Below are positions 13,108 to 34,139 of a stretch of 35,261 nt of DNA, piece by piece. Made by a program: the position numbers and the translations under genes. This DNA comes from a virus. Under the pieces are notes generated by a model. It worked only from the letters and a program-made list of their open reading frames with translations, was not told the DNA's origin and ran no database searches. The stretch is taken from positions 1 through 35,261 of the IMG/VR virus record IMGVR_UViG_3300020477_000594; one strand, 5' to 3'. How positions within the stretch are numbered: position 1 is the first letter of the stretch; each line of letters opens with the position of its first letter.

Positions 13108-13125
13108 AGCCTATCGCTTATACCA

Positions 13126-13774: not shown

Positions 13775-13780
13775 ATTGTT

Positions 13781-14787: not shown

Positions 14788-16719
14788 ATGCCATCAGGGA
14801 AAGCAATAACTGTAGAGAAATGGGCGGATTATCAAGCTCTTCGCCGTCAAGGGAAGTCGCTTTATGCCGCAGCAAAAGAATGCGACATTTCCTACCACGC
14901 TTGCCGAGACGCAGAAGGGGGCAAAGCTCCGAGAAATTTCATCGCCGCCCAAGAAGCGCTGGGGCAAACAATCCAGCCAGAGGTGCCTCAATATGATGAC
15001 CTTTGTCCTGAGGCGCAGGCTGCGTATGACAATATCGAAATCTTTGCCAAAAGGTATTTCGGCATTATTTTACAACCGTGGCAGATTGAAGCAACCGAAC
15101 GGATCATGGGTCTGCTCGAAACAGAATACGAAGAGTATGTAGTTATCAACGCCCCACCGGGTACAGGTAAATCCACGTTTTTTGCGAAAGTTTTACCTGC
15201 GTGGGCTACAGTTCGGAACCGTGCCATTCGTGGCATGATCGGGTCTTCTACGCAGCGTTTGGCTGAGTGGTATTGCCGCAGGTTGCGTGCCGAGTTAGAT
15301 CGAGCGCATCCGGTTAGAGCCGAATTAAACGATGTTCGTTTAAATTTGGCGGTTGACGCCGAGGCCACGCTGCAAGAAGACTTCGGAATGTTTAAACCAG
15401 ACTCGTCAGAGATCTGGCGTGCCGAAGCATTCACTGTGTTACAGAAAGATGACACACCGCTATCGCAGAAAGAACCTACATGGTCCGCATTCGGTATGGA
15501 CTCCGGGTTCCTTGGTGGTCGCTTTGACCTAGTTATCTGGGACGACGTATACGACCCTCGCAAAATGAGATCCGCTGAAGCCCGAGAAGATATGCGAAGA
15601 TGGTGGGATGAAGTGGCTGAAACTCGGCTCGAACCCGGTGGATTACTCGTATTACAAGGACAGCGAATGTCCGCTGATGACATTTACCGATACGCACTTG
15701 ATAAAGTTGCGCCCCCGGACGACTACGAACTCGAAGAATTCGATCCAGAAGATGCTCCAGAAGAGTGGCGTAAATATCATCACCTCAAATATCAGGCGCA
15801 TTATGACGAAATTTGTTCAGGTGATCCCGAAGAACACAAGCCCAGCGGGAAACCTTGGCCTGAAGGATGTCTCCTATATCCGAGGCGGCTACCGTGGCGA
15901 CGATTACGGCATATCAAAGCACAAACGCCAGATAGATTCGAAGTTCTTTATCAGCAGTCGGATGTAAACCCGGCCAATGTTCTAGTAGACCCTCTCTGGG
16001 TAAGCGGAGGACAAGGAAAAGATGGGGTACATCACCCCGGATGTTGGGATGATGACCGGGATTTATGGGAATTACCCGCAAATGTTGGCGGCGAAATGTT
16101 TGTTATCGCTACCGCCGACCCCTCTCCAGCAAACTTTTGGGCTATCCAATGTTGGGCTTACAACCCACAAACAGAGTTTCGCTACCTTTTAGAGTCATAT
16201 CGACGTAAGATGGATGCACCGTCCTTTTTGGACTGGAGCCATGAACAACAACGATTCACCGGTATAGCCGAAGAATGGTGGCAAATAAGCAACGATATGG
16301 GGCACCCGATTACTCATTGGGTTATCGAAGCTAACGCTGCACAGAAATTCATTCTCCAGTACGACCATTTCCGACGCTGGGCGGCATTACGAAATGTTCA
16401 ACTTATTCCGCATTACACGCATTCTAAAAATAAAGGCGACCCGAAATACGGGGTGCAAATGCTTGCTCCGATATGGCGTGTTGGCCGAGTGCGTTTGCCC
16501 GGTAAGCAGAACACTGAAGCAAGACCTCATTCGTTACTTCTCGTCAACGAAGTAACACGCTGGAATGCTGAAGGTACCGGTGCCAGAACAGATGACTGCG
16601 TTATGGCACAATGGTTTCTCGAACATAATTTAGAGAAACTTTACATGCCGACTACAATTAACAATCGACAGTGGCGTCCGACTTGGCTCACGGGTGACGC
16701 CGAACTTTTGGCGAGGTAA
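14788..16719 (+). CDS. terL: Terminase large subunit with N-terminal HTH
   Basis: 643 residues, SD AAGGGG. Residues 8-43 form a helix-turn-helix-like segment (VEKWADYQALRRQGKSLYAAAKECDISYHACRDAEGG). ATPase: Walker A NAPPGTGKST (121-130), Walker B DLVIWDD (247-253), and a coupling motif LQGQRMS. The C-terminal RNase H-like nuclease has ATADPSP (Asp444), WVIEAN (Glu514) and RTDDCVMA (Asp602/603). The enzyme cuts concatemers and pumps DNA through the portal. No separate small subunit is visible in the window, so the N-terminal HTH may do its DNA recognition. The portal follows directly (2-nt gap). Confidence 0.95.
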   Translation: MPSGKAITVEKWADYQALRRQGKSLYAAAKECDISYHACRDAEGGKAPRNFIAAQEALGQTIQPEVPQYDDLCPEAQAAYDNIEIFAKRYFGIILQPWQIEATERIMGLLETEYEEYVVINAPPGTGKSTFFAKVLPAWATVRNRAIRGMIGSSTQRLAEWYCRRLRAELDRAHPVRAELNDVRLNLAVDAEATLQEDFGMFKPDSSEIWRAEAFTVLQKDDTPLSQKEPTWSAFGMDSGFLGGRFDLVIWDDVYDPRKMRSAEAREDMRRWWDEVAETRLEPGGLLVLQGQRMSADDIYRYALDKVAPPDDYELEEFDPEDAPEEWRKYHHLKYQAHYDEICSGDPEEHKPSGKPWPEGCLLYPRRLPWRRLRHIKAQTPDRFEVLYQQSDVNPANVLVDPLWVSGGQGKDGVHHPGCWDDDRDLWELPANVGGEMFVIATADPSPANFWAIQCWAYNPQTEFRYLLESYRRKMDAPSFLDWSHEQQRFTGIAEEWWQISNDMGHPITHWVIEANAAQKFILQYDHFRRWAALRNVQLIPHYTHSKNKGDPKYGVQMLAPIWRVGRVRLPGKQNTEARPHSLLLVNEVTRWNAEGTGARTDDCVMAQWFLEHNLEKLYMPTTINNRQWRPTWLTGDAELLAR

Positions 16720-16721: not shown

Positions 16722-18491
16722 GTGAAATCCGTAGAAGAAATTATTAGTTTATATACGGCACGATCTCGTACCAATGATAGCGCCAAAGCAAAAATGCGTG
16801 AACTGCGAGATTACTATAACGGCGATGTTGTTATTCCTCTACCAGAATTAAACAGTGACGAAAAATCTGCTGTCGCTAACCTTCTTGGGCAAGGCTTAGA
16901 CCAAACAGCGATGCGTATCGCATCGACAAGCCCCGATATTTATTGTCCGCCAGTAGACACACGCACTAAACGAGCACGAGAAAACGCTGATATACGTCGC
17001 AAAGCTCTGTTTGGGTTTTGGGAAAACAGCCGAATGGATCTCCAATTGGCGAAACGGGCACGTCATCTCATAGGTTACGCCAGCACATGCACACATCTAA
17101 GGTTCGACAGAAAGATTGGGGCACCTACATGGCATGTCCGTGACCCATTAACTACCTATCCAGCAACAATGTTGGGGGTAGATGATGTTCGGCCAAGGGA
17201 CGTTATCTTTGCTTACGAGCGTCAACTCGGGTGGATACGCCAAATGTATCCAGAAGCAGCACGGCAATTCGGTGGAGATGGCACAGCTACAGAAGATACA
17301 AGTCTTCAGCTAATCGAATACGTTGATGCCGAAGAACAAGTTCTTATCGGTATGCGTACTGTTACACCTAAATCATTACCTTTCATGTCACCAGTTAGCT
17401 CCGGTGAAGCAAAACAAATCATTGTTGAATTAGAACGGATACCTAATCCACTTGGGCAAACCCCAGTTGTTTGTGCACAAAGAATCAGTCTCGATAATGC
17501 ACAAGGACAATTCGACGGCATCCTCGGCATGTACCAAATGCAAGCACGATTGATGGCCTTAGAAGTTATAGCTGTCCAAAAAGGTGTATTCCCCGACACA
17601 TATCTCATAGGTCGGGCCGGAGAAACACCACAAATTGTAAACCCAGCCGACGGTTTAACCGGCGAAGTTGGTGTTGTTCGAGGTGGAGATCTTCGAGATA
17701 TACAAACCCAGCCGGGTTATATGACAAACCCAGCTATTGACAGGTTGGAACGGGCACAACGTTTAACTGCTGGAATCCCACAAGAATTTGGTGGCGAATC
17801 AACTTCCAATATTCGGACAGGGCGACGAGGCGAAGCCGTTCTTTCGGCTGTCGTTGACTTCACGGTACAAGAAGCACAACGAATAATGGCCCGGTCGCTG
17901 CAAGAAGAAAACCGTTTAGCCATAGATCTTTGCAAGGCATACGCTGGTGGACGTAAACGTAGCTTTTATGTCAGCACCAAAAACGCCAAAGGCGCAGTTG
18001 ACTACGTGCCCAACGAAAACTTTGACAGCAACGACAACGTAGTTTCCTACTCACACCCCGGTGCAGATATCAACAATTTAGTAATCGGCGGCGGGCAACG
18101 AGTCGGGATGGGAACAATGTCGAAGCGTTCGTTTATGGCTATCGACCCGCTTGTAGAAGATCCCGAGTTTGAACACGACACGGTAATAGCTGAACAATTA
18201 GAACAAGCACTTCTTTCTTCTGTGCAACAACAAGCTTCAGAAGGTGTTATTCCCGCTGGTGACTTAGCTCGAATTATGGAATTAGTAAAGAACGACCAAA
18301 TGGAACTGGCTGAAGCTGTCGAAAAAGTGCAACGTGAAGCGCAAGAAAGACAGGCAGAAGTAATGCCAGCAGGTTCCCCAGAGACAATGCCGGGGCTAGC
18401 AGCCCCCGGAATGGGAGCAGAAGCTATGGCCGCTATGCCGCCTGAACCTGCAACGCCGCAATCACTTGAAGAATTAGTGGCGGCGCTGTAA
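16722..18491 (+). CDS. Portal protein
   Basis: 589 residues, GTG start with GAGG just upstream, right after the terminase. Portal-like features: an N-terminal Tyr/Asp/Asn segment (MRELRDYYNGDVVIPLPELNS), a Trp/Pro-rich part (HVRDPLTTYPATML), a long central helix region (GQFDGILGMYQMQARLMALEVIAVQKG), then IPQEFGGESTSNIRTGRRGEAVLSAVVD as the clip/stem, and a C-terminal Ala/Met/Pro-rich tail. Length is typical. The portal is the DNA channel at one corner of the capsid and binds the terminase. The stop overlaps the next start (TAATG). Confidence 0.88.
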   Translation: MKSVEEIISLYTARSRTNDSAKAKMRELRDYYNGDVVIPLPELNSDEKSAVANLLGQGLDQTAMRIASTSPDIYCPPVDTRTKRARENADIRRKALFGFWENSRMDLQLAKRARHLIGYASTCTHLRFDRKIGAPTWHVRDPLTTYPATMLGVDDVRPRDVIFAYERQLGWIRQMYPEAARQFGGDGTATEDTSLQLIEYVDAEEQVLIGMRTVTPKSLPFMSPVSSGEAKQIIVELERIPNPLGQTPVVCAQRISLDNAQGQFDGILGMYQMQARLMALEVIAVQKGVFPDTYLIGRAGETPQIVNPADGLTGEVGVVRGGDLRDIQTQPGYMTNPAIDRLERAQRLTAGIPQEFGGESTSNIRTGRRGEAVLSAVVDFTVQEAQRIMARSLQEENRLAIDLCKAYAGGRKRSFYVSTKNAKGAVDYVPNENFDSNDNVVSYSHPGADINNLVIGGGQRVGMGTMSKRSFMAIDPLVEDPEFEHDTVIAEQLEQALLSSVQQQASEGVIPAGDLARIMELVKNDQMELAEAVEKVQREAQERQAEVMPAGSPETMPGLAAPGMGAEAMAAMPPEPATPQSLEELVAAL

Positions 18492-18889
18492 TGCCACGTA
18501 AAGGTAAAGGTTCCAAAACTCAACCAGTCCAGACAGCAACCGGTCAAACATATGGTGAAGCTGGAGTTCAAGAACAAGCACAAGAAATCGTGCCGTTGCC
18601 CCAAGTCATCGATGCTGAAATAGTAGAGCCTGCTCCTCGAACCGGTGCACAACCGGGGGTTATGGGTAGTCCCTTCAGGCAAACAGAGTTCCCAAATGAA
18701 TCTGTGATGACAGGAGCAAATTATTCTCAGGCAGCCGGTCCTCCGCTTTCAGCAGGACGGGCACAACAATTGCCAAGGTTTTTGCACATAATGGGTGCTT
18801 TAGCTAATAACCCCTACGCAGATGACGGAATGAAAGAAATAGTCCGTCGAATGGAACAATTCGTACCACCATCACCTAGAGCACGATGA
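18491..18889 (+). CDS. Small structural-region protein, 132 aa
   Basis: 132 residues, coupled to the portal stop. The first 90 residues are low-complexity (Gln/Ala/Pro/Gly) and basic at the start (MPRKGKGSKTQ). The last 35 form a small helical domain (QLPRFLHIMGALANNPYADDGMKEIVRRMEQFV). It overlaps the giant gene start by 4 nt (ATGA). Between portal and giant protein it may be an adaptor or chaperone for that protein, but this is inferred from place. No family match. Confidence 0.65.
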   Translation: MPRKGKGSKTQPVQTATGQTYGEAGVQEQAQEIVPLPQVIDAEIVEPAPRTGAQPGVMGSPFRQTEFPNESVMTGANYSQAAGPPLSAGRAQQLPRFLHIMGALANNPYADDGMKEIVRRMEQFVPPSPRAR

Positions 18890-21800
18890 GTTTCGGTAGC
18901 CGGGTCTGGAAGATATTCCGCAATGTCCCTGATATAGGGATACAAGCTGCGGACTTTTTTGTTGATGGCATCAGCGCATTGGGGGATGACGAGTTTGGTG
19001 TTGTCGAAGGTTTCATAGAATCGTGGGAAGATAATGTTTTAGGGAAACCTTCTGGCACAGGGACAGGTGAACGAAGCATTATCGGTGCGACCTTAGGGCC
19101 GCAAGGTATTGTTGGCGCAACTGTAGAAGCAGTACCCGAAGGTGTAAGAGAAGCAGTAGGAAGTGACCACTGGAACTTAATGCTCAGTGGATTAGATTTT
19201 ACATGGACATATGGGGTTGCCCGTCCAGTTGCGACTCTTGCCACTATCGCCAACATAAACGCACTTAGTTTTCAACAAAGCAAATATTTGCAAGCTATCC
19301 GCTCCGGGGAAGTAGATCCCCGTGTAGCAAGCATGAATGGTTGGCTCCCGTTTAATCATCGGACATTTGATCCGACGACGTGGCGTGAAGCATGGAATTT
19401 GACACAGCATCGATCACCCGGTCAAGCAGCGACGCTGGCGCTAAACGGTGTAAATATTTACAGTCCTGAAGAACTCGCAGAGTTCAAAGAAACAAATATG
19501 TATTACATAACGTCTGGGGTTCTGGACGCTGGGTTAGCTGTTGCGGCTGATCCAACTTATTTAGGAGCGAAAGCTGCACGGTTGCGTGTTCTTAATAGAC
19601 GAGCACGAAACCTTTACGACGAATCAGGTGGTTCGATTACTAGCGTCGGACCATATTTAGAAGATGGTGTTGTGCGCCCCGGATTGTTTGGCGAACGGCC
19701 TTACATGGAACCGTTTATCCAAACACAGCGTCCGGCAGCACAGCGAGAATCAATTGTTTTGCGGACACCAAGCCGCAGAGATATTCGCATTGGGGGCGAA
19801 AAGTTACACAACTGGATATTGGAACACGAAGCACCCGCATTAACACGGTTGCTTGGTGGAAGTGTCACAGATATGTTGACTATTCCGGGCGGCAGAAAAG
19901 TGGGAGATCCGGGCCGTGTACGTGACGAACTTTTCTTTGAAAACTATTCGTATAAACCTAAATGGATGGATGACCAACCATCCACAATGGATGAAACATT
20001 AACAAGCTACGTCGATGAAGCAGAGCGAATTAAAACAATATTCGACGATGAATTAGAGTCTGCATTAAACAACGGAGATATCCCTCTTCACGTGATAGGC
20101 ACAGGTGAAGCAAGCCTTGATCCTAAATGGGGTCTTCTCCCAGAGAACTACATTTGGGATTTAAACCCGGACAGTGTAGGTACTAAACAATGGCAGACTT
20201 TCGAAGACTCCACCCGAGCAGTCATTGACGATTTCCAAATTGCATTTGACAGTTTTGAAGAAACTCTCGCAAGCGGGGATCTCTGGACTGCTGCAAGTTT
20301 TGGGGAAGGCAAAGGACTATTCGACGGTGAAACGTTAGAACGGCTTCCCGAAAAAATAAGCCACATGATTCAGGATTATGGGCCTCTAGCGGAAGCTTTG
20401 GACGAGGCTGGCAGAAAAGCCAATGCCTCTGATCCTAGAGGTTTGTGGACAGTTTTGCGAAGCTTGGATGAATTCATCGAGGACACACTTGGTGTTTACA
20501 CTGACAGATTCAGTATTGATCCCACTAGTGATTTAGGCAGAGCATTACCTGAGCAATACCATCTATTAGCTGACGATCTTTATTCTTTGCGTGGACGCTT
20601 TAGAAATCTTTTGATTGAAAAGCCTTTGGCGGTACGTGCAAGAGAAGCGCTGAAACGCGCCAATGAAGAAGTACCTCCCTTTGACAGCCCAACTGAGCAA
20701 CTTGTTCGCAATAGTGGCTTCACAATGGCCTTACAAAATCTAATCGACTCTCATCGATCAGCAACCAGAACAAATCTCGTAGATGAACTAAACAATCTTA
20801 TTGAACGCTCTTTAAACGAAATAGATGGTAGCGAAAACTATGCAATAAATAATCTCTGGAATGCGCTCCACCCCGGACGGGCAAGTGCGGGATCTCGAAC
20901 ATTCAGAGAATTAATTGAACGGTTGGACGAACAGTTCCCCGGTATGGGTTGGGATGATTTCCTTGATAACGATTACCTAAGAGATGTTTTACGAAGACAA
21001 GCTGGGGGGGACGAAGATGCTCGTCGTCCATTTGATTGGTCTGAGTTCGCGGACGGTTGGCCTATTGAGGAAGGAAGACAAGAACGGTGGGCTATATATG
21101 TAGATCAAGCAACTACCGTCATAGAGGATTTACTTGACCGACAACGGAATACAGCACCGCTAAGAGATGCTGATACCCCTAATCCCTACGCAGATTTTGA
21201 ACAACGTATAGAACAAGTACGGCAAGTTATCGAAGACATTGTTGTTGAAGGTGCGATTGAAAGACGATTCGATGGTCCTGAAGATCGCGTAAATCTTTGG
21301 GGTCCAGAAGAGTTCGCAGCAATGCAATCAGGGTTTAATTATTTAGTCGCTGCCACAGACGAAATGATAGATGATTTCGTTAGAGCGGCAGTTCCTAATG
21401 AACTTTTAGAAATGCAAGACATATACCAAGATTCTCTTGCTAGCCAATCAGCTTTAATGGGGTTGGCTAGTTCAATGAGTCCAGATGATTGGAATCGATA
21501 TGTCGATGAACTCTACGGCAAAGATCGTTGGGCTGGGGCAAGAGGGTCATATCACACTGAAAAGTTTTTAGATCGTTTAACTCTACGTTTGTTTAAAGAG
21601 TTGCCTACATGGGGACCGTTCTATAAGGCATTGCCCAAAGACCAGCTTTGGCAGCGAGCACAAATATATGCACGTGTGGCTAATGGTGGTCCTGTAGATA
21701 GTTCTTCTTGGCTTCCTTATTACAATCTTATTCGTTTAGAAAAAGGAAACCCTGCTGTTAAAGCAGCGATGACAGAACAAGCAAAAGACTTTTCCTACAT

Positions 21801-24800
21801 TTGGTCTTTGTTGCGAGATATCGAAGCACCTGTTATCAGAACAAGAGAAAGAGGTGTTTTCGGTTCCGAAATCAGAAGTGTTTACGACAAAGATGTAACT
21901 GTTGATCCCATCGATAAATCCGTTACAGAATTCCGAACCGACATACTAAATATGTCTTATGACGAACCCGGATTAATAGTTCCCACTTATCCTCGGAACA
22001 TTGATGAAACAGCCAAACTTGCTGATGAAGGCATCGACAGATATATAGACCGTGGCAACGAACCGGGTGACCAAACTACTTATTCCTTGCCAACTTCAAT
22101 GAGAATTAGGCATAACCAAGAAAGAGCTACCGTTCACTGGCACTTTAGAGAAATTCGTCATGCACGACAAAACATTCTTGCGCTTGAAGAACAAATTCGG
22201 AAACGCAAATTCGATGAGAAAGTAAGAAAAGAAGATAAAATCTATCAACGTGATGAAGGGTTCAGCCTTTTGGATGAGGCCGTCGAGATTTTAGACGACC
22301 CGGAAGGTCCACATTTTGACCCTATTTCTAAAGCAAATGCTGAACGGTTACGTCTAACCCTTAAAGCTAAAGAAGCAGCCCACGCTCTTTATATCAAAAA
22401 CTATTTGTTTAGCCCACGTGCTTTAGCCCAAATGGCTGAAGTCCAAGGAAAGCGGGTTATCGAAGATTTAATGAATGAAGTCTTCGAAGCGAACGGAATG
22501 TGGGTTCAACCAGAAGCAGGACCGAATTCTCCAGCTTGGGCTTGGTCACAACTTGGAGCAGATGTATCAGAAGAAGCTTTACGTCAAGCTGGCGACATAA
22601 TTGAAAACTATGAACACGTGATGTTCGACCATACTTTAGGTCGAGAAATGGGTTTGACTGAGTTCCAAGATATGTTCCCAAGCCCACCTCCAGCAAGAGG
22701 ATTTGTTCGTGAGAGCGCAACTGATCTTATAGATTTTGCTGGGTTCGATCCGAATAGCCCCTATATGGAATTGATCGACCGCATTTCGGAAATGGATAGA
22801 TTTCCTTGGCAAGCAGTCTTAGGATTAGATGACGCATTAGTCGGAATGCTGGTTAAAACCTACGAACGTATTCCACCTATCGGATTTAAAGAAGATATAG
22901 CTACGGATGTTTTGCAGACAAGAACTGCTCCATTCGACGATCCAGTTCCCGAAATGCTTAGTTCTCCTGAAGCTCATTCTTTAGTCGCAGATCAAATAAT
23001 AGAAGCTGCGATGGCCCCGTTGAATCCTGCATTAGCTAAAGCTTTGCCGTCTGCCCCATCGACAAGGACAGGAGTGCTAGCGAAAACTTTGTTTAGCAAA
23101 TCAGGGCCGTTAGCAGGTCCGATGAATAGTCGCTTCGTTAGGCTGTTCTCGGAAAAAATTCCTCATGGAGTTATAAACGTCCATGACCGGAGTACCGTTG
23201 CTGGGCAACTTGAAGTTATGTTCCGTGAATTAGGACGCATCAATCTTTTAGTGCCTCCCGGCATGGGCAGACGTGAGAGAAAAGCAACGCTAAAGAACGC
23301 TGCGCCTGATACACCCCGACGTTTAGCTAGCGGTGAAGATTTTACGCTTCTTGATCTTGCGATTATGACCTACAAAGGTACGCCAGAACTTCCAGAACCG
23401 GCTCCTCGGAATCGGATAGAAGCAGAGCAACGTGTTGATGATCTAATGATCGACTTTCTTAATTCCTATGGGGATGAATTAGCAGTCAAAATTGATCGTC
23501 TTAATGAAGCGGCTCTTAACGGTGCAATAAACGCAGTAACTCCTCACCCAATATTTAAAGATGTTGATTGGGGAAGTGCCGGTGTTTCGGCTGCAATGAA
23601 AGGAATACTTCGAGGCGATATTGATGCAGCTAAACGTTTATTAGAAGATGCAGCAGAACACACAGAACGACGATACGGGAATAGTGATTTCACTGAAGTA
23701 GTAATTCCCGAATTGGGTGGGACAACATTTATTTATAAACCAATGTCTCCATCACAAATGCGGCAAACATTAGTGATGCCTCGGTGGGATAAATTCGAAC
23801 GCCTTTTCCAAGTTCTTCAAGGCGATATAAAAACTATTATTGGACCCAACGGAGAAAACCTAGATGTTTCTGTTAGCGCCAGAAATGCAATAGTTAGAGC
23901 GACACGTCGTGAAGCATTAACAATGTGGAAGCGTCATACGCTTCTGACTCCACGTTGGCAAATGGTAGTTAACACAGATTCGCAACTACGCAATGTTGCA
24001 CATTTAGGGGCTGCGATGGCGTTAGGGCGTCTTGGCGCATCGTTTGATGAATTACGTGTTCGCTGGCTTCGTAAAGCTGGGGTAGATATAAACGCTGTTG
24101 TAGCCGACAAACTCGTTGAGCAGTTGCCGGATTCGCTTACAGGGGCAGGTTGGGTTCAGCAAGTTGACTTTTATAAACGATCACATGATGAAGGTGTGGT
24201 GGGATTTGAAAGAACAATAGAAGAGTTTGTCGCTGATGCTATTGGAGAAGAGTATGCAAATAAGCGTGCGAATATAAGAACTCTTGCTATGACTGGATCA
24301 GGTTGGTTCTTTGGTGGTCCGGTAGGCGCTGCTGCTGCCGCTGGCCTTTACACAACATACAGTCGAGACAGTTTAACAAAACTTGCACGTCGCCAATTAG
24401 CTGATACATACGGTGTGGCTTTGCGAGCAGAAGCATTGGATCTGGTTGAACGTGCAAACAGACTAGATATTTCAGAATTTATGCGGGCGCAATATCCTGA
24501 CATTCCGCAGTATGCGCTTGACGAAGTAGCAGAGGTAAAAAGTGAACATTGGATAGCCCGAGATGCTACATACAATGATTGGATTAACGAAGCAGGTACA
24601 ACAGAATCTTGGATGTACAGGCGGCTGCTAGAAGATGAAGGCTTAATCGATGCAGAACATATAGCCCATCGTATAAATTGGCAGCTTCTCCAAGAACTAG
24701 GTGCGCGTCAAAGAGGCGAATACTATTTCGACAAGCTGGATCATACCCCAGTTTCTGACGAAGCTCTTAGAAATCTGCGTGCTATCACCAGATCACGATC

Positions 24801-27800
24801 TGACGGTAGTCGTGGTGACCAATTCAGGATAGAAGACATCCGTAATACTGAGGTATACACGAGAAGCTCGTATTTAACTCAACTTATTATTCAACACAGG
24901 TTTAACCAGCTAGCTGATGCTAATGGTGTTATCACTTGGGAACGGTCAACACGCCGGTCGTCGTCGCCTTCAAGAATGCCAGAGTTGGGGTTCTTCATTA
25001 GAGCAGAAGATGTAACTCAGATACTTGATACGCAAGGTTCGTTAAAGAATCTGGCAGAACAGTTGCAAACCACAATTAAAGATCGCAACGAAGTCGCTCG
25101 ACTATTAGCCACTCGTGCCGAAATTGTAAATGACTATCAAACTAAAATTGTTGGTGACGCAAAGTTAGACCCCAGCATGGAGAAACCAATCTCTATGCTT
25201 GAAGAGGCAGGAGAGATCTTAAGCGAGTGGGGTTACGGGTCAACACAAGTTGGTTCAACACGTGTAGATAAAGCATTTGGCAATACTCCACAGCAACAAG
25301 AAATTTGGCGACGTGGAATATCAGCTAATCCAATGGCAAGAGCGCAACTTGACGCTGAAGCTGATGTGCAAAGACGTTTTGAAAAATTCCAAGGCGCTCA
25401 CCAATACGACATACTGAACCAATACGAAGAAGCTAATTTTTCTAAAGCGTATGACGATTTCTTAATCCGCCATGTAATTCCACAGGATCTCGATAAAACA
25501 AATCTCGCTCAACAATTGTGGGCAAAAGTATTTTCGGAAACAGAAAGAGTGGGGGGATACGATGCTGACGAAATTGTTAAGTGGATGCGTGCCAATAATG
25601 TGCAAGAACTTCTTCCTGAAGAATGGCACGGGTTCGATCGAGGAATTGGGGATGGGCTTTACGAATTAGCAGTAAAAATGGGGTACGAAGCAAACAGTAT
25701 CTTGCCAAGTTCCGTAGATGTTTTCGATGAAGCAAGACGATCTCTGATACAAGGCACTCCCATTTCGTGGAATGTTGAAGTAGCTGCTGGTATCAGAAAG
25801 TTAAACCAACGGCACGAAGATTTTTGGATTTTATATAAGCAACTTGATAAGCAATACCGACAAGCAACAGGTTCTCGCTATTACCCCGACGAATTTTTTG
25901 AAGATCTATTTGGACCAAATAGAATCGAAGGTCCACGGTGGGTTGATGATTCTGATATAAGAGAAACCCCATTTAGGATGAGCGACTCAGGTCGTAAATG
26001 GGAAGACGTAGTTAGCTGGGACTCCATAAGACAAAATCTCCGTGGCCCCAGCACACTAGAAATTTTCCAACACTCATGGAATGAGACTGTTGCGAAATCT
26101 GTTGCTGGTGAGTCTCAGAATGTTTTAATTGCCCGCACGTTAAGCACAGACATAATCGAACAGATGCGGAGAACCGCTGTTTCCGATAGTTGGGATAACC
26201 TTCGCTCATTAACAGATTATGAAAAAGCCAAGCGTAAATCTGATCTAAGAGGTCAATACACTTGGGAATCTAACGGCATAGGCGACTTCGGTAAAGTCGT
26301 TACCGATTCTTCCTTTATCGATGCTCTGCAAAGCAAAAATATTATTGACCGATACAAAGGTTTGCTTGACGGCATCTTTGAAAATCTGACAATGGTCGAA
26401 GATTATCTTTCACGAGGCACTCTTTACGAAAGCATTTACACACGTGAAATCTTTGAAAATCTTCAGCTATATCGCTTAGACGATGCAGAAGGTGTCAACT
26501 ATCGAATTAGCCCCGAAGCTCTTAAAGGTGTAGTTAACAAAACAAGAGCTAGTGCTCTTCAACAAACTAAAGATGTTCTTTACGATTTGGCTAACCGTTC
26601 AAAGTTTGAAGAATTAGTTGGAGAAATCTCCCCGTTCTTTGGAGCGTGGCAGGAAGTTACAACACGATGGTTTGGTATAGCTGCTGAAAACCCAGTGTTT
26701 GTTTTCAGAATGTTGAAACTTTGGACTGTAGCAACAGCCGAAGATGAAAACGGACAAAGTATTTTGATGGTTCAGCTACCTGATGTCTTTGATTCAGAAA
26801 TTGACACAAAGTTCTTTGGTTCACACAAACTCTTTGGCAGTCTTTCTGTAGCTTCTCAAATGCCAATCGATTTAAATCTGCGTTCAGCTTCGTTAATCGG
26901 TGGCTTTGCGGGAACCGGGCCGATAGTTTCGTTCGCTGCAAGTGAACTTGCGATTGAAAATCCTGACATTTATGAGTCTCTCGATTTTCTGTTCCCTTAC
27001 GGTTTAGTAGAAGGAGGCAATGCACTTGAACGGTACGCTGCTGCTCATACACCTTCTTGGATAAAGAGCGCTGCATCAGTCGCTGGTCTTGACACTGACC
27101 GGAGAGCAGCAACAGCGGCGAGAGTGCTGCAAGATATTCTTGCTGAACAGTACATACAAGGGAATGTTCTACCTAATTCTGAAGCAGGGGCTAGACGGCT
27201 ACTCGATGAAGTAGAACGTCGAACCAAAATGATTTACTCGATGAGGATGCTTCGGTCTTTGGCAGTACCAGTTTCCTATCAACAACAGTCACCGTATTGG
27301 CCGATCCTTTCAGAGTTTTGGCGTACCGAAAAAGAATATGGTGATGAAGTAGCCGATCTTTGGTTGATGGAAAACCATCCAGAGCTTTGGTCAGCTACAG
27401 CACGGCGGACACTTGCTGATGGGGTTATAGCTGGATCGCTTGAAGGACATCGTTACTACGAAGATCACAAAGCTATGGCTACGGAATATCCTGAATTGGG
27501 AGCGTTTATAACCGGCGAAGTCGGAGCTATAGATGTGCAGTTTGCGTACAACAAAGCGGTTGCACAGATAGAACGACAAGAAGGCCGACGTGACACTCTG
27601 ACACCTGACGATTTCTTACATGAAGCAGGATCTAATTTAGGATGGAGAGAGTACCGGGTATTCCGCAATTCGTTGACTAATGAATTAAACAAGCGGATGC
27701 AAGCCGGTGGTTCGGGGAGCCTTAACGCACAATCAAACTTTGATTTGTGGAATCAACGACGGAATTTCGTTACAGAACTATCTCGCAAAAATCCAATGTG

Positions 27801-28173
27801 GGCCAGTGAGTTTAACAAGATTGGTGATCCGGTTACACAGAAGAAAATTTTGGAAGGCTTCAGGTTAATAGTTGAAGATGAAGCGTTTGCTTACCGTCCA
27901 GAAATTCCCCTTATCCAACGTTATTTGCAGTTACATGACGGTATAGCTCAAAGTCTTTTAGCACGAGCCGCAGCCACCGGCAACCGCTCATATTTGAGAC
28001 TTTCTTATACAAGAAATCAAGATCTTTCACGTCAATGGGAAATCGGAGTTTTGCAACTCTTGACGTTCCCAGACTTTGGAAATATATACGACAGGTACTT
28101 TAGTAATATCGAAAGTGTGAATACTTCTAATCTTTCTCAATTTGCGCCTGCGACATTAAGGACAGGTGACTGA
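18886..28173 (+). CDS. Giant virion-associated protein, 3,095 aa
   Basis: One continuous frame, more than a quarter of the window. Start coupled to the upstream stop (ATGA). Mostly helical and acidic, with no signal peptide. A Gly/Ala-rich hydrophobic segment (1803-1822) may cross or touch a membrane. Near 1686-1703 there is LLTPRWQ...N...RN and near 2582-2595 SPFFGAWQE...RW, both like motifs I associate with very large phage internal proteins, though I cannot name a family. No RNA polymerase motif set or peptidase motif was recognised. Position (between portal and the transglycosylase-like gene) suggests an ejection or internal protein. For comparison, N4 virion RNA polymerase is near 3,500 residues and T7 gp16 about 1,300. 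Confidence 0.8.
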   Translation: MSFGSRVWKIFRNVPDIGIQAADFFVDGISALGDDEFGVVEGFIESWEDNVLGKPSGTGTGERSIIGATLGPQGIVGATVEAVPEGVREAVGSDHWNLMLSGLDFTWTYGVARPVATLATIANINALSFQQSKYLQAIRSGEVDPRVASMNGWLPFNHRTFDPTTWREAWNLTQHRSPGQAATLALNGVNIYSPEELAEFKETNMYYITSGVLDAGLAVAADPTYLGAKAARLRVLNRRARNLYDESGGSITSVGPYLEDGVVRPGLFGERPYMEPFIQTQRPAAQRESIVLRTPSRRDIRIGGEKLHNWILEHEAPALTRLLGGSVTDMLTIPGGRKVGDPGRVRDELFFENYSYKPKWMDDQPSTMDETLTSYVDEAERIKTIFDDELESALNNGDIPLHVIGTGEASLDPKWGLLPENYIWDLNPDSVGTKQWQTFEDSTRAVIDDFQIAFDSFEETLASGDLWTAASFGEGKGLFDGETLERLPEKISHMIQDYGPLAEALDEAGRKANASDPRGLWTVLRSLDEFIEDTLGVYTDRFSIDPTSDLGRALPEQYHLLADDLYSLRGRFRNLLIEKPLAVRAREALKRANEEVPPFDSPTEQLVRNSGFTMALQNLIDSHRSATRTNLVDELNNLIERSLNEIDGSENYAINNLWNALHPGRASAGSRTFRELIERLDEQFPGMGWDDFLDNDYLRDVLRRQAGGDEDARRPFDWSEFADGWPIEEGRQERWAIYVDQATTVIEDLLDRQRNTAPLRDADTPNPYADFEQRIEQVRQVIEDIVVEGAIERRFDGPEDRVNLWGPEEFAAMQSGFNYLVAATDEMIDDFVRAAVPNELLEMQDIYQDSLASQSALMGLASSMSPDDWNRYVDELYGKDRWAGARGSYHTEKFLDRLTLRLFKELPTWGPFYKALPKDQLWQRAQIYARVANGGPVDSSSWLPYYNLIRLEKGNPAVKAAMTEQAKDFSYIWSLLRDIEAPVIRTRERGVFGSEIRSVYDKDVTVDPIDKSVTEFRTDILNMSYDEPGLIVPTYPRNIDETAKLADEGIDRYIDRGNEPGDQTTYSLPTSMRIRHNQERATVHWHFREIRHARQNILALEEQIRKRKFDEKVRKEDKIYQRDEGFSLLDEAVEILDDPEGPHFDPISKANAERLRLTLKAKEAAHALYIKNYLFSPRALAQMAEVQGKRVIEDLMNEVFEANGMWVQPEAGPNSPAWAWSQLGADVSEEALRQAGDIIENYEHVMFDHTLGREMGLTEFQDMFPSPPPARGFVRESATDLIDFAGFDPNSPYMELIDRISEMDRFPWQAVLGLDDALVGMLVKTYERIPPIGFKEDIATDVLQTRTAPFDDPVPEMLSSPEAHSLVADQIIEAAMAPLNPALAKALPSAPSTRTGVLAKTLFSKSGPLAGPMNSRFVRLFSEKIPHGVINVHDRSTVAGQLEVMFRELGRINLLVPPGMGRRERKATLKNAAPDTPRRLASGEDFTLLDLAIMTYKGTPELPEPAPRNRIEAEQRVDDLMIDFLNSYGDELAVKIDRLNEAALNGAINAVTPHPIFKDVDWGSAGVSAAMKGILRGDIDAAKRLLEDAAEHTERRYGNSDFTEVVIPELGGTTFIYKPMSPSQMRQTLVMPRWDKFERLFQVLQGDIKTIIGPNGENLDVSVSARNAIVRATRREALTMWKRHTLLTPRWQMVVNTDSQLRNVAHLGAAMALGRLGASFDELRVRWLRKAGVDINAVVADKLVEQLPDSLTGAGWVQQVDFYKRSHDEGVVGFERTIEEFVADAIGEEYANKRANIRTLAMTGSGWFFGGPVGAAAAAGLYTTYSRDSLTKLARRQLADTYGVALRAEALDLVERANRLDISEFMRAQYPDIPQYALDEVAEVKSEHWIARDATYNDWINEAGTTESWMYRRLLEDEGLIDAEHIAHRINWQLLQELGARQRGEYYFDKLDHTPVSDEALRNLRAITRSRSDGSRGDQFRIEDIRNTEVYTRSSYLTQLIIQHRFNQLADANGVITWERSTRRSSSPSRMPELGFFIRAEDVTQILDTQGSLKNLAEQLQTTIKDRNEVARLLATRAEIVNDYQTKIVGDAKLDPSMEKPISMLEEAGEILSEWGYGSTQVGSTRVDKAFGNTPQQQEIWRRGISANPMARAQLDAEADVQRRFEKFQGAHQYDILNQYEEANFSKAYDDFLIRHVIPQDLDKTNLAQQLWAKVFSETERVGGYDADEIVKWMRANNVQELLPEEWHGFDRGIGDGLYELAVKMGYEANSILPSSVDVFDEARRSLIQGTPISWNVEVAAGIRKLNQRHEDFWILYKQLDKQYRQATGSRYYPDEFFEDLFGPNRIEGPRWVDDSDIRETPFRMSDSGRKWEDVVSWDSIRQNLRGPSTLEIFQHSWNETVAKSVAGESQNVLIARTLSTDIIEQMRRTAVSDSWDNLRSLTDYEKAKRKSDLRGQYTWESNGIGDFGKVVTDSSFIDALQSKNIIDRYKGLLDGIFENLTMVEDYLSRGTLYESIYTREIFENLQLYRLDDAEGVNYRISPEALKGVVNKTRASALQQTKDVLYDLANRSKFEELVGEISPFFGAWQEVTTRWFGIAAENPVFVFRMLKLWTVATAEDENGQSILMVQLPDVFDSEIDTKFFGSHKLFGSLSVASQMPIDLNLRSASLIGGFAGTGPIVSFAASELAIENPDIYESLDFLFPYGLVEGGNALERYAAAHTPSWIKSAASVAGLDTDRRAATAARVLQDILAEQYIQGNVLPNSEAGARRLLDEVERRTKMIYSMRMLRSLAVPVSYQQQSPYWPILSEFWRTEKEYGDEVADLWLMENHPELWSATARRTLADGVIAGSLEGHRYYEDHKAMATEYPELGAFITGEVGAIDVQFAYNKAVAQIERQEGRRDTLTPDDFLHEAGSNLGWREYRVFRNSLTNELNKRMQAGGSGSLNAQSNFDLWNQRRNFVTELSRKNPMWASEFNKIGDPVTQKKILEGFRLIVEDEAFAYRPEIPLIQRYLQLHDGIAQSLLARAAATGNRSYLRLSYTRNQDLSRQWEIGVLQLLTFPDFGNIYDRYFSNIESVNTSNLSQFAPATLRTGD

Positions 28174-29441
28174 TGTCATTCTTAGGAAGACTAAGTGACG
28201 TATTGGCAGAAGTGCCTTTACCTCCGAATCTCAATGCGGGACCGCTCGCTTTAAAGGTTTATCAAGAGTACATTTTGCCGAACTTGTCTGATGAAGAAAA
28301 AGAAAGGTTTGATCCCGACGCAGATTCTTTATCTCAGATAGAACAAGGAACAGATCCGCAGCAAGGAAACTCCGGGGGGAGAGGAGCAGCCGAGATTGCG
28401 GAATGGCTTGAAGGTCGAGTTGCTGATGGTCAAATAACCCCAGAAGAAGCACAAGCTTTGTTGATGGGCGCTGTACCACCAGCTAGTCCTCCTCGAAATG
28501 AAGCTCTAATTACTGATATAGAGTTTGTTAATCAGCCGGGAGGGGGAGATATTGTTTCAACTGGCTTTGATCCCCTTGGCCGCAGCGGTTCTATGTTTAT
28601 GCAAGGTGTTGTCCCAGCGGGAACACTTGGGTTAAAAGATCAACCATATTTTGGTGTTTTCGCACCGGGATTCAGTCTCGAAAGTGATGAACTGATGATC
28701 GGAACGGCAACCAAAATAGATAGAGACATGGAACAAAAAGGTTTTGAGTTTCGTCGAATGGTTGAAGAAGACCGACCGTTCACTATTAAAGATGGGTTGA
28801 ATCTTTACGATCAACAATCTCCCAGAGCGCAAAGATTGATTGCTGAAAGTCTTGTGCCAACGATGATGAAAGATCCTAATTTAAGGAAACTAATAATGAG
28901 TACCCCGGAGTTGATATACGACCGGGATTCTGTATTCATTGCATTATCAACTATTCAAGAAGATGCTGCTTATCAAGCAAGTTTGTTGAAAGATCACCCT
29001 ATGTCCACTGGGTTTGAAACTCTGGATATGATTCCGGCTTTGACGGAAGCAGAGCTTGGGTTTGAAGACCCTTGGGACTCGGGACAATTCGGTGAGAATC
29101 GTCGAGCTATGTCAATGAAAGATCTAACAGATTATTTGTTTGATGAAGCTGTTGCTTTAGGTGCGGTAAAGACTGTTACGAAAGAATACAGTGATGCTCT
29201 TGCGGAAAGCGTTTACCGAGAGTTGACTGGTCGTGCCCCGGATGAGGCTTTCTTTGTGTTAGCAGATACGTGGACTAGAGAAGTTCAAATGGATAAAGGA
29301 ATGTCTGGGCAAGGTGCTGCATCGCAAGCAGAATATTCAGCGAGATATGTGAGTGGGATCGAAGAAGAGTATGGAGATGAAATTGCTGAAAGTAATCAAA
29401 GAACCGCACGGTCTTCTTTGCTGAGAGCTATGCAAAGGTAA
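28173..29441 (+). CDS. Hypothetical internal virion protein, 422 aa
   Basis: 422 residues, coupled to the giant gene (TGATG). N-terminal part is amphipathic (MSFLGRLSDVLAEVPLPPNL), then a Gly/Ser/Gln-rich linker (about 50-70), an acidic helical core with a short EFRRMVEEDRPFTIKDGLN stretch, and a final helical domain (350-422). No catalytic motif. Placed with the giant protein and the lytic protein, it is probably part of the same internal complex. No family match. Confidence 0.65.
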   Translation: MSFLGRLSDVLAEVPLPPNLNAGPLALKVYQEYILPNLSDEEKERFDPDADSLSQIEQGTDPQQGNSGGRGAAEIAEWLEGRVADGQITPEEAQALLMGAVPPASPPRNEALITDIEFVNQPGGGDIVSTGFDPLGRSGSMFMQGVVPAGTLGLKDQPYFGVFAPGFSLESDELMIGTATKIDRDMEQKGFEFRRMVEEDRPFTIKDGLNLYDQQSPRAQRLIAESLVPTMMKDPNLRKLIMSTPELIYDRDSVFIALSTIQEDAAYQASLLKDHPMSTGFETLDMIPALTEAELGFEDPWDSGQFGENRRAMSMKDLTDYLFDEAVALGAVKTVTKEYSDALAESVYRELTGRAPDEAFFVLADTWTREVQMDKGMSGQGAASQAEYSARYVSGIEEEYGDEIAESNQRTARSSLLRAMQR

Positions 29442-29444: not shown

Positions 29445-31244
29445 ATGCCAGAAGTACTTGCTACGCCAGAAGAGATACTTGAAGCAGTTTCCTCTATTCC
29501 GGGGATATATGACAACGAACCGGTAGATCTTATTGCTTTAGCTTTTCTTGAAGCAAACAATTTTCTGGATGCTCAAAATTATGATTTTGATGATGACTAT
29601 TTTAGAGCGACTGGGAAAAGCCGAGGGTTAAAGAGTGCGAACGCAGTAGATAGATCTTACGGGATATGGCAAATTAACTTTCTCCCTGAATATGGCGCAA
29701 AAAGAGCAGCCAAAATCAACAATCGAATGGGGGATGGAGGGGAAGAATATTTAAAAACTGAAAAAATCCGAGGGGTAGATGTAGTTACCAAAGAATCATT
29801 GGATGAGTTTTTTAGTGCGAAGCACGGTAAAGAAGAGTTGTTCAGACGCAATCTGATTGCTCTTTCTTCTGTGTGGAGTCCCGGCGATAACTTTGGTGCT
29901 TGGTCTACTCACCCTGATTACACCGTAGAACTTGGAGAACAAGACCGCATAAATCGGGACAGAAAATTTGAAGAAGCTCATCAGTCTGCTAAAGAACTAT
30001 ACGAAACAATAAACCCTCCCTTTGTTCCTTCGGAAGAATACCTAGCATTAGAAGAAGAATTATTAAAAGCCGAAACTGAAGAAGAAGAAAACCGTATTAA
30101 AGGTTTGATGGGTGAAGAATACAACCGCATTAAACCTTTTGAGTTCATTAACCGTGAAGATCGTCCTTTAATAAACCGTGAAACTACCCCTAAGTTATAC
30201 AACCAAGATCGGGTAGTTACCCTTGACATGCATGGGACAGGCAGAGGCATACCCATACAACTAGCGAATAAGAGAACAAATATGGCTACAGATCCTGAAG
30301 GCATAATGCCTCCTGAATATAAAGACAAAGTAGCGGCTGGCATTTGGGGTTGGATTGGCAACAACGATGCTTTAACTATCGATGGTGTTCACATAATCGA
30401 TATCATCACTGATCCAGAACAATACGGTGAGTTGATACCGGGTACTCCTGACTACGACGAATGGGTATTCGGTTTACTTGCTCAAACAGAGTATTACCAA
30501 AACAATTGGGAAGACCGTGCGGAACGGGATCTTGAATGGTATACCGAAGGGCAACACGAAGCATGGTCAGAACGACGGCGTAGCCTAGTTGAAACAGAAT
30601 TAGATTTAATTGAAGGTTTTATAGCTGAAGCACAGCTTGATTGGACTGACGATCAAATTTTACAAGCAGCAAAATTTGCGTGGCTCAATGGTTGGGACGT
30701 AAACGACATACGTGAGTTCCTTATTTCAGGGGAACTTGGAGATGAATCGTTTGCTGGAGATTTAATCGACTTTGATGATGAAGCTATACCGGGAACTCTT
30801 CAAAATATTGGGCGTCAGGAAATCACAAAAACGTATAATGACTATTTTGTTGAACCAACTGAAAGAGACATTGAAGATTGGGCAACTCAGATGTTCTTGT
30901 CGAAAGACGGTGGCGACACAGAGTTAGAACAGTTAAAAGATTTCTTGCGCGAACAAGCTGCTGATTTATATCCGGGTCACGCTGATCGGATTCTTGCTGG
31001 CCGTACACCTTTAGCAATATTGGGTGCTTACGAAACAGTTTTCCAATCAGTTATGGGTTATAAACCACAGTGGGTAGGGCAACACAGAGAATTAGCAGTC
31101 GATGTTCTTGGTCGCAATGACACGGCGACAGGGTTTGCTAGGTATTTACGAGGGACAGAAGAATACGATGGAACTACTAATGCCGTTAATAAAGCGTTTA
31201 GCACAGTTAGTAATTTGAATCGGTTAATGACAGGAGTCGGCTGA
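29445..31244 (+). CDS. Virion lytic transglycosylase-like protein, 599 aa
   Basis: Residues 25-160 match the soluble lytic transglycosylase/lysozyme fold: an ALAFLEANNF helix with a catalytic Glu (Glu36), SYGIWQINF (71-79; the G..QIN signature), and a NFGAWSTHPDY tail (149-159). Enzymes of this type cut the glycan strand of peptidoglycan. In phages, a virion-bound one opens a local hole for DNA entry. Residues 160-599 are a long acidic helical region (e.g. LALEEELLKAETEEEENRIK) without known motif. Start 3 nt after the upstream stop with AAAGG before it; stop overlaps the next ATG. Role in entry rather than host lysis is inferred from the neighbours. Confidence 0.8.
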   Translation: MPEVLATPEEILEAVSSIPGIYDNEPVDLIALAFLEANNFLDAQNYDFDDDYFRATGKSRGLKSANAVDRSYGIWQINFLPEYGAKRAAKINNRMGDGGEEYLKTEKIRGVDVVTKESLDEFFSAKHGKEELFRRNLIALSSVWSPGDNFGAWSTHPDYTVELGEQDRINRDRKFEEAHQSAKELYETINPPFVPSEEYLALEEELLKAETEEEENRIKGLMGEEYNRIKPFEFINREDRPLINRETTPKLYNQDRVVTLDMHGTGRGIPIQLANKRTNMATDPEGIMPPEYKDKVAAGIWGWIGNNDALTIDGVHIIDIITDPEQYGELIPGTPDYDEWVFGLLAQTEYYQNNWEDRAERDLEWYTEGQHEAWSERRRSLVETELDLIEGFIAEAQLDWTDDQILQAAKFAWLNGWDVNDIREFLISGELGDESFAGDLIDFDDEAIPGTLQNIGRQEITKTYNDYFVEPTERDIEDWATQMFLSKDGGDTELEQLKDFLREQAADLYPGHADRILAGRTPLAILGAYETVFQSVMGYKPQWVGQHRELAVDVLGRNDTATGFARYLRGTEEYDGTTNAVNKAFSTVSNLNRLMTGVG

Positions 31245-32557
31245 TGGCTTTTATAGACCCAGAGTTTTATGGGGGCAGTACACTCCAAGACGAAATCAAT
31301 AAGCGACGTGACCGAGCTAAACGGGAAGCTGGTACTGGTGTCGATATGGAATCCTCTCTTGGGGTTCCTATAACTAGTGGTATAACTCCTCCGTCTAATA
31401 CCGGCTCCAACGGTTCCAATGGTTCCAATGGTTCCGATGAAGATGATGGTGCTGGTGATGTTCCACCGCCAATGGATTGGGAAGCTATACGTCTGACTTG
31501 CGAAAGAGATGGCGGGACGTTTCATTGGGATGAGGAAACACAAACAGGATGGTGCCAAACTAAATCTGGCGGAGGGGACGACGGCGACGATGGCGACAAC
31601 GGTGGGATGAGTGATTGGATTGGCTACCAAAAAGAATTAAGCCAAATGAGTGCTCGTGCCACTATCGAAGGATACTTGGGACGGTTCGGTCTTACAGGTC
31701 TTAGCGATTGGGTACACCAAAACATCACTGATGGTGTAACGGCTGAAGGAATGCTCACTCAACTGCGTTACGGGCAATCAGATGTTCCTCAATATCTTGA
31801 AGATGGGACACGAAACCCTCTTTATGTGCCACCAAATGTGAGAGACACCTACGACAATAGGTTCCCCGGAATGCTAATGCGTAGAGATAACCGTTTAGCT
31901 CCTATAACTGAAGCAGATTACATAGATTTGGAACGTGGTTATTACCAAATAGCTTCAGCAGCAGGGTTGCCTTCTACCTTTTTAGATTCACAAGCATTCC
32001 CTATGGATGGGAAAATGCAAACAGGTGTGACACAACTCATTGGACATGATGTTTCCTTAGCAGAATGGCGGACTCGTGTAACTTCAGCAGAAGAAGCCAG
32101 CCGCACAGCCAACGCTCCAGTACGTGACATACTTGTTAAACAGTATGGCTTTACAGAAGGTGACATTACAGCGGCTTTCTTAGACCCCGCTGCTGCTATC
32201 AGTATTGTTGAAGCTAGACGTAACCTTGGGGCTGCTGGTTTAATGGCAGAATCAGGTCGTGTATTAGGCACAAACCAAAGGTTCAGTAGAGGTTTGTCTG
32301 ATGCTTTACAAGAAATGGATGTGCAAAGACGAGAAATCGCAGCACGTACCTCACCAATTGCTGGGTTGTCTAAAGGTATCTTTAGTTCTGAAGGGTTAAG
32401 CGGCACCCAATTGGGTGAAGCAGCATTCGGAATTAACACAGATAGCCAAACAAAGATGCGTCGTGAGCGAGAACGTCGTGAACGGCAATTTGGTGGACGA
32501 ACAAATACCCTTGCTTCAGGCCAAGGTATGCGTGGTATAACCACTACCAGTACTTGA
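31244..32557 (+). CDS. Hypothetical virion protein with SNG and GDDGD repeats, 437 aa
   Basis: 437 residues, start coupled to the upstream stop. Residues 50-75 hold a (SNG) tandem repeat, coded by repeated GGTTCCAAT (31411-31437), then a Pro/Asp-rich piece, then a Cys pair (TCERDGGTF...GWCQTK), and a Gly/Asp-rich loop (GGGDDGDDGDNGG). The rest is a globular, mixed domain (WIGYQKELSQMSARATIEGYLGRFGLTG...). Linkers like these join domains in virion proteins. No family. The stop codon overlaps a promoter-like sequence for the scaffold/capsid genes. Confidence 0.65.
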   Translation: MAFIDPEFYGGSTLQDEINKRRDRAKREAGTGVDMESSLGVPITSGITPPSNTGSNGSNGSNGSDEDDGAGDVPPPMDWEAIRLTCERDGGTFHWDEETQTGWCQTKSGGGDDGDDGDNGGMSDWIGYQKELSQMSARATIEGYLGRFGLTGLSDWVHQNITDGVTAEGMLTQLRYGQSDVPQYLEDGTRNPLYVPPNVRDTYDNRFPGMLMRRDNRLAPITEADYIDLERGYYQIASAAGLPSTFLDSQAFPMDGKMQTGVTQLIGHDVSLAEWRTRVTSAEEASRTANAPVRDILVKQYGFTEGDITAAFLDPAAAISIVEARRNLGAAGLMAESGRVLGTNQRFSRGLSDALQEMDVQRREIAARTSPIAGLSKGIFSSEGLSGTQLGEAAFGINTDSQTKMRRERERRERQFGGRTNTLASGQGMRGITTTST

Positions 32558-32673: not shown

Positions 32674-33150
32674 ATGACAGATTCCGACTCCACTGGTTAC
32701 AGTGATGCAGGTTCTGACAGTTCAACTGAATCGAAACCTAATTGGCGACGTGATTTAGAAAATCGTTTAAAGGACGCTGAAGCGAGAGCAACAGCAGCCG
32801 AAAAACGTGCTTCTTCCTATGAACGTCAAGATACTTTCCGTTCTGCGGGAATTGATCTTAGCGATCCACGTGCTAAGTATTTCGTGAAGGGTTATGAGGG
32901 AGAACTCGATGTGGAAGCTATCCGTATGGAAGCTGAAGCTGCCGGGTTCTTAGGTGCTGATGCACCACCAATTAATTCAGCAGTTTCTGACGATACGTTG
33001 GTAGCTGAACAACGGATACAAGCAGCCGGGGAAGGTGGAGATCCAGTGTCACCTATAGATCTCGAAGCTCGTATTAAAGCGACAACAAATACAGATGAGT
33101 TGCGTGCTTTGATGGAGTCTGAAGGCGTTCTTTGGGGAGCTAGCCAGTAA
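32674..33150 (+). CDS. Scaffolding protein
   Basis: 158 residues, SD AGGTGAG. Very hydrophilic, with an acidic Ser/Asp-rich N-terminus (MTDSDSTGYSDAGSDSS), then a Lys/Glu/Ala-rich coiled coil (RRDLENRLKDAEARATAAEKRASSYERQDTF), and a short folded C-terminus. This composition, and its place just before the major capsid gene, are typical of phage head scaffolds that guide shell assembly and are then removed. No protease is seen nearby. Role inferred from pattern and place. Confidence 0.82.
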   Translation: MTDSDSTGYSDAGSDSSTESKPNWRRDLENRLKDAEARATAAEKRASSYERQDTFRSAGIDLSDPRAKYFVKGYEGELDVEAIRMEAEAAGFLGADAPPINSAVSDDTLVAEQRIQAAGEGGDPVSPIDLEARIKATTNTDELRALMESEGVLWGASQ

Positions 33151-33194: not shown

Positions 33195-34139
33195 GTGGCA
33201 ACACCTACAGTAACAACCTCAACGCTTGACGATCAGGTAAAAACGGCGTTCGATCAGGTTGCGTATTTCGCTTTGCGTTCGCAACCGTTGTTCGAAATGA
33301 TCGCTGATGTCAGGTCAACAGCCCAGAGCCATAACGGTTCGGGCGTACAATTCACGTTCTACGCTGACATGGCACAAGCAACATCGGCACTTACCGAAAA
33401 TGCTGATGTAACTGCCGTTGCGTTGACAGATAGCGCAGTAACCGTAACTCTTGCTGAGTACGGCAACGCTGTTATCACCAGCGCTAAGGTCCGTGGAACC
33501 TCATTCCTAAACGTGGACGCTGATGCGGCCAACATTGTTGGCTACAACATGGCTGACTCGCTCGACAAAATCGTTTCCGACGTAGTAAACGGCGGTTCAA
33601 ACGTAACGTATGTCGGTCAAACAAGCCGTGGCGCTATCACAGCTACCGATAACTACACCGCTGCCGAAGGTCGGAAGGCCGTCGCACAGCTTCGTGGACG
33701 TAACGCTCCGGGTTGGGAAAACGGTAACTACATGGCGATCATTCACCCTGACGTTTCTTACGATCTTCGTGGAGACACAGCGGTAACTGACGTCATTCAA
33801 TACCAGCTATACCAAGAAGGCGCACCGATCCGTGCAGGTTCAATCGGCACCTTCAATGGCATCGAATACATTGAAAACCCCCGTGCAGGTCTAATCGCCG
33901 ACGGTGGTTCAAGTACTGTCGATGTTTACCAAACCCTAATTGTTGGCCGTCAGTTCGCTGCTAAAGCGTTCTCTCGTGCAGCAGGATTTGGTCCTGACCC
34001 AAGCATTGTTGTTGGTCCTGTGACTGACACTCTGCGTCGGTTCAATCCCATTGGGTGGTACCACCTCGTTGGCTATGGCCGCTTCCGTGAGGAATGCGGA
34101 CAACGTGTGGAATCATCATCCAGCATTGGAGATAACTAA
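33195..34139 (+). CDS. Major capsid protein, N4-gp56 family (HK97 fold)
   Basis: 314 residues, GTG start, AAGGA 8 nt upstream; a small AGTCC/GGACT hairpin stands just before it. Pattern fits N4-gp56 capsid proteins: an N-terminal helix with QVAYFALRSQPLFEMIADV, VQFTFYADM, then AIIHPDVSYDLRGD, and GSIGTFNGIEYIENPRAG, ending FNPIGWYHLVGYGRFRE. It forms the shell by HK97-like packing. Length is typical (about 300-400). It is followed by a strong hairpin (34155-34203). Confidence 0.9.
   Translation: MATPTVTTSTLDDQVKTAFDQVAYFALRSQPLFEMIADVRSTAQSHNGSGVQFTFYADMAQATSALTENADVTAVALTDSAVTVTLAEYGNAVITSAKVRGTSFLNVDADAANIVGYNMADSLDKIVSDVVNGGSNVTYVGQTSRGAITATDNYTAAEGRKAVAQLRGRNAPGWENGNYMAIIHPDVSYDLRGDTAVTDVIQYQLYQEGAPIRAGSIGTFNGIEYIENPRAGLIADGGSSTVDVYQTLIVGRQFAAKAFSRAAGFGPDPSIVVGPVTDTLRRFNPIGWYHLVGYGRFREECGQRVESSSSIGDN

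Follow-up and report, generated by a model that had tools for sequence, protein, structure and literature searches.

A giant cysteine-free protein encoded between portal and capsid genes is probably packed in the virion of a short-tailed phage and ejected

In phage N4, the virion RNA polymerase passes as beads on a string through a channel of about 35 Å, and how several copies of about 380 kDa each do so is an open problem (PMC12633501). Virion RNA polymerases of the N4 type carry a fused metallopeptidase with an HExxH motif (PMC5512222). The phages of cluster BF are podoviruses; in one of them, Destructrice, the tail measures 16 nm and a tape measure could not be identified (PMC13097060). In the Microbacterium phage Burro, a virion band of about 250 kDa has been attributed to gp27 or part of it (PMC7302621). 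Here we describe a 3,095-residue protein from an environmental phage sequence and compare it with these and other systems. Gene order and composition suggest, at a probability of roughly three in four, that it is packed inside a short-tailed virion as an ejection protein.

The window that we analysed is an entire IMG/VR record of 35,261 bases, which is linear and probably a fragment. The genes around the giant open reading frame (ORF) follow a late order from terminase to capsid, and the gene features of the window are as follows (coordinates, strand, assignment).

8773-9792, - strand, DUF932 gene (1.1e-21)
14788..16719, + strand, terminase large subunit (TerL; phrog_38 match)
16722..18491, + strand, portal (by its position and its resemblance to the syntenic ct2KA10 gene)
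18491..18889, + strand, 132-aa protein without cysteine, encoded after the portal and before the giant
18886..28173, + strand, giant ORF (3,095 aa, ATG start, no internal stop, no cysteine)
28173..29441, + strand, 422-aa cysteine-free cassette protein
29445..31244, + strand, 599-aa cysteine-free protein resembling wall hydrolases (family of Immanuel3 gp11 and gp12)
31244..32557, + strand, 437-aa protein, homologue of Immanuel3 gp13 (phrog_8424)
32674..33150, + strand, probable scaffold, 158 aa, cysteine-free (by position)
33195..34139, + strand, N4-gp56-type major capsid protein (MCP; TIGR04387, 3e-36; phrog_1357)

The unbroken frame between portal and capsid genes that the preliminary description reported is borne out by the ORF call, by substitution rates and by intact homologues. 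For 3,095 random codons, the probability of meeting no stop is about 10^-64.5. Compared with the copy in L002, which is 86% identical, dN is 0.086 and dS is 0.452 over 3,064 codons (dN/dS 0.19); given this ratio and the improbable length of the open frame, the giant is a gene under purifying selection. By region, dN/dS is 0.07–0.08 in residues 1291–1890 and 2461–3095 and 0.39 in residues 401–890. Other IMG/VR contigs encode full-length homologues with the frame intact, of 3,106 aa (L002 and L004), 3,166 aa (L083) and 2,858–2,875 aa (L024, L084 and L089), as well as shorter forms. At one further locus (L077:7046-11977) the giant ORF is broken into four frames, by frameshifts or sequencing errors.

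The same gene order recurs in all 12 related IMG/VR contigs examined, in which the giants have 2,012–3,166 residues; taken over all the complete ones, the range is 2,007–3,166 residues. At the syntenic place, the cluster BF Streptomyces podophages Immanuel3, WRightOn, FlowerPower and Abafar encode a protein of 1,635–1,648 residues, followed by genes for an NlpC/P60 peptidase and an SLT glycosylase. The neighbours named in the preliminary description also stand: the capsid protein is of the N4-gp56 type, and the transglycosylase-like protein is the 599-aa one. This protein has no Pfam match of its own, but iterative searching groups it with Immanuel3 gp12 (SLT, 2.5e-5) and gp11 (NlpC/P60, 3.6e-30) as a single family.

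The giant is a long variant of PHROG 10618, a widespread and uncharacterised family whose function has so far been filed as unknown. It matches phrog_10618 at E=8.5e-16 in two stretches, the best at residues 2786–3080, and the same profile finds its relatives L098 (2.4e-70) and L085 (1.8e-17). Against Immanuel3 gp09, blastp gives 4e-16 over residues 2508–3095, and hhalign puts the homology at 99%. Two alignment-based scans of viral contigs (63 and 23 loci) yielded the family set of 77 distinct ORFs, some of them partial. We compared long and short forms by profiles, leaving the truncated long ORFs L012 and L013 out of the short set; MAFFT alignment of full-length long and short forms was unreliable in the middle. 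Residues 2507–3073 of the long form correspond to 997–1592 of the short form (E 6.5e-19). Near the N terminus, residues 162–235 match 129–235 less strongly (78%, slice 1–300; reversed and shuffled controls both below 1%). The family falls into the following regions of the giant.

18886..19635, + strand, N-terminal conserved module, residues 1–250 (162–235 match short forms)
20086..21555, + strand, variable segment, residues 401–890
22756..24555, + strand, conserved core, residues 1291–1890 (dN/dS 0.08)
25036..28170, + strand, C-terminal conserved region, residues 2051–3095 (2507–3073 homologous to Immanuel3 gp09; helical in a low-confidence model)
26632..26655, + strand, PFFGAWQE motif, residues 2583–2590, one of the stretches best conserved across the family

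Direct alignment of the giant to the short form covers only residues 162–235 and 2222/2507–3073. The 2,756-aa protein of L028 bridges the two: its residues 1377–2744 align to short-form 280–1594 (E=9e-66) and its residues 110–232 to 96–248, which implies an insertion of about 1,100 residues behind its N-terminal module. The 2,007–2,012-residue versions in L085 and L087 retain residues 1–248, 1282–1891 and 2051–3083 of the giant and have no counterpart of residues 401–800. That absence and the L028 insertion together indicate that the extra length is optional and, as judged from the alignments, the family core does not exceed about 2,000 residues. A syntenic 1,764-aa protein in ct2KA10 (L007:8727-16931) is a marginal case, with a profile probability of 34% against the short forms and about 1% against the long forms; the gp13-like protein that follows it carries a long Gly-Thr repeat. 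Scanning bacterial and archaeal genomes for the FFGAWQE pattern gave 89 pattern matches and no relative, and a PDB sequence search with the giant gave no match.

The model predicted for residues 2036–3095 is nearly all helix, at low confidence (mean pLDDT 66, pTM 0.41). Foldseek searches with this model found nothing below E 0.12 in the PDB and eight matches below 0.001 in BFVD, including a protein of Streptomyces phage Manuel (E=4e-12), the rest being noise. The N-terminal half, modelled on L085, reached a pLDDT of 56, too weak for structure search or interpretation. Two glycine-rich hydrophobic stretches, at residues 65–83 and 111–129, score below the usual transmembrane values and could enter a membrane.

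The host points to Actinomycetota, on the basis of the Streptomyces hosts of the isolated relatives and a WhiB gene in the L098 contig (G013:C1:35260-35454, - strand), whose giant has 2,756 aa; the 35,261-base window itself has no WhiB gene. Besides the DUF932 gene, the early region carries genes for SSB, RNase H-like and PD-(D/E)XK nuclease proteins. Where the leftward gene block gives way to the rightward one, positions 12000–14000 have a GC content of up to 0.51, a switch in the sign of GC skew and no convincing genes, and are possibly a control or origin region.

The giant contains no cysteine in 3,095 residues. Its family has 12 in 137,597 residues, with none in 68 of the 77 ORFs, counts that are not independent because family members share ancestry. 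The cassette partners are similar: 0 of 8,453 residues in the 132-aa family, 0 of 6,988 in the 422-aa family, 0 of 13,303 in the gp10 family and 2 of 24,367 in the 437-aa/gp13 family. At the same loci, cysteine makes up 0.90% of TerL, 0.53% of portal and 0.33% of MCP residues. With its 68 tryptophan TGG codons, the giant shows no avoidance of TGN codons. At the rate of the portal and MCP of the window it would be expected to hold 17 cysteines (P(0)=4e-8), and at the rate of ejected proteins 1.2 (P(0)=0.29). In the wall-hydrolase family, 44 of 47 cysteines lie in [DN]C[SA][GAS], the kind of motif that forms NlpC/P60 active sites (for example, L005:12251-13567).

Near-absence of cysteine is a criterion calibrated in this analysis rather than an established one, using hand-chosen phages in which ejected or internal status is known or annotated. 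The ejected or internal proteins of T7, P22, N4, phiKMV and epsilon15 contain 5 cysteines in 12,674 residues (0.04%), and the other virion proteins of these five phages 100 in 14,795 (0.68%). There are also none in phiEco32 gp22–gp26 (2,796 residues, gp26 partial) or LUZ24 gp50–gp53 (1,999 residues), for which individual ejection roles are assumed. T4 Alt, a proven injected protein, is an exception, with 3 cysteines in 682 residues. Scaffold proteins also lack cysteine, though they are not ejected; the signature thus marks internal virion proteins and not ejection alone. Akoni gp31 (L006:17984-31447) and Burro gp27 (L011:9189-22664), of about 4,490 aa each, have no cysteine. Cysteine is unmentioned in the N4 structure preprint (PMC12633501) and in a 2022 review (PMC8954989); older literature was outside our scope and we claim no priority.

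Could the giant be a virion RNA polymerase like N4 gp50 that has diverged past recognition? The two proteins are alike in several respects: both are giant and cysteine-free, they are of similar size, and both are encoded in the neighbourhood of an N4-gp56-type capsid gene and beside other cysteine-free proteins (gp51 and gp52 in N4). It might also be counted in favour of a polymerase that no other RNA_pol family match appeared in the related contigs, a search made uninformative by a control that also gave no match. However, N4 gp50, run identically to the giant, matches four Pfam domains of the virion polymerase (PF21894, PF21769, PF21867 and PF21624; 1.7e-97 to 1e-21) and phrog_2206, whereas the giant has no Pfam, NCBIfam or PHROG match to a virion RNA polymerase, and its relatives L096 and L098 show none of those Pfam domains or phrog_2206. 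The profile of the giant family scores 0.4% against N4 gp50, at the level of a reversed control, and comparisons with gp51 and gp52 are also near the reversed-control level. Neither a T7-type polymerase motif set nor a DxDxD metal motif was found in the giant, in agreement with the earlier reading that no complete set is present. Furthermore, the middle of the protein, where the polymerase lies in N4, is largely hypervariable or missing in close relatives. We consider a polymerase practically ruled out, with only a few chances in a hundred left for a highly diverged one. A polyvalent early effector, in which several injected enzyme domains act on the host, is very improbable. Such proteins are giant, encoded late and injected (PMC5512222), and effector cargo could reside in the variable middle. 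Against this, a Pfam search of the giant that allowed E values up to 1 gave no domain, NCBIfam and PHROG gave no enzyme family, and neither an HExxH nor a Walker A motif is present; L096 and L098 likewise lack a Pfam enzyme match.

Two further alternatives concern the assembly of the particle. The giant may be a core or scaffold-like protein that helps to assemble the head and is not ejected into the cell, as its position near the scaffold and capsid genes and the absence of cysteine in scaffolds would allow. We regard this as unlikely: every contig examined has a distinct scaffold gene, the giant is far longer than any scaffold, and it is partnered by wall hydrolases, whose activity fits a role in entry. 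That it is the tail tape measure of a long-tailed phage is harder still to credit. It is long, helical and cysteine-free, as is T4 gp29 with respect to cysteine (0 Cys), yet its gene precedes that of the capsid and sits between those for portal and scaffold, and the syntenic isolated relatives are short-tailed.

An internal virion protein that is ejected through a short tail is the reading that we prefer. The podophage gene order, the cysteine signature and the absence of a virion polymerase domain all support the injected internal protein proposed in the preliminary description, and from them we infer packaging and injection. A trait of ejection proteins, a late cassette with partners and a wall hydrolase, is present. 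The closest likeness is to Immanuel3 gp09 and its cluster BF (Beephvirinae) homologues, which share with the giant the C-terminal region of about 570 residues, an N-terminal stretch (HRSPGQA ... ADPxYLGAKAA), the same place in the gene order and the lack of cysteine; these homologues have 1,550–1,722 residues rather than 3,095, and most of what the giant has beyond them falls in the stretch that separates its N-terminal module from its C-terminal region. T7 gp15/gp16 and P22 gp16/gp20 likewise belong to late cassettes of cysteine-free internal proteins that include a peptidoglycan hydrolase. The cassette of the giant differs in that the hydrolase is a separate protein, and the giant is more than twice the length of T7 gp16; profile comparison with the T7 proteins detected no homology (hhalign no higher than 1.4%, close to the controls). 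The EK-cluster proteins Akoni gp31 and Burro gp27, both of Microbacterium phages, are also giant cysteine-free proteins of actinophage podoviruses, but their genes lie upstream of the portal gene and that of the giant downstream; hhalign gives 0.1–3.8% against the giant family (reversed controls, 0.2–0.5%) and 100% for Akoni versus Burro. N4 gp50 differs in the polymerase domain and the metallopeptidase HExxH motif, which the giant lacks, as it lacks detectable homology to gp50. By analogy, the giant may work like T7 gp16 or the non-polymerase parts of N4 gp50, without demonstrable common descent.

If so, the protein would be packed in the head near the portal and would leave through the short tail, either unfolded or as beads on a string. 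Partner hydrolases would open the wall first, and the glycine-rich hydrophobic N terminus and the helical C terminus of the giant may then help to form a path through the cell envelope. The variable middle may serve as a flexible spacer or carry cargo particular to a lineage. Cysteine may be excluded because any disulphides or thiol adducts arising during exit would block passage or refolding. We give even odds to a broader proposal: that cysteine exclusion is a general and selected trait of proteins that exit through short tails, that nearly only catalytic cysteines survive in them, that sequence alone can identify ejected proteins, and that unrelated giants (PHROG 10618, N4 gp50, Akoni gp31 and Burro gp27) share this composition through convergence.

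With this reading, PHROG 10618, a family filed as of unknown function, gains a likely function class. From one related phage to another, the protein can grow or shrink by about 1,000 residues while the remaining cassette is unchanged. The cysteine rule, which has been calibrated on proven ejection proteins, offers a simple sequence test and would make the question of which virion proteins enter the cell testable over thousands of phages. Avoiding cysteine would keep disulphides from forming along an oxidising exit path, and this would offer a concrete clue to how such proteins pass.
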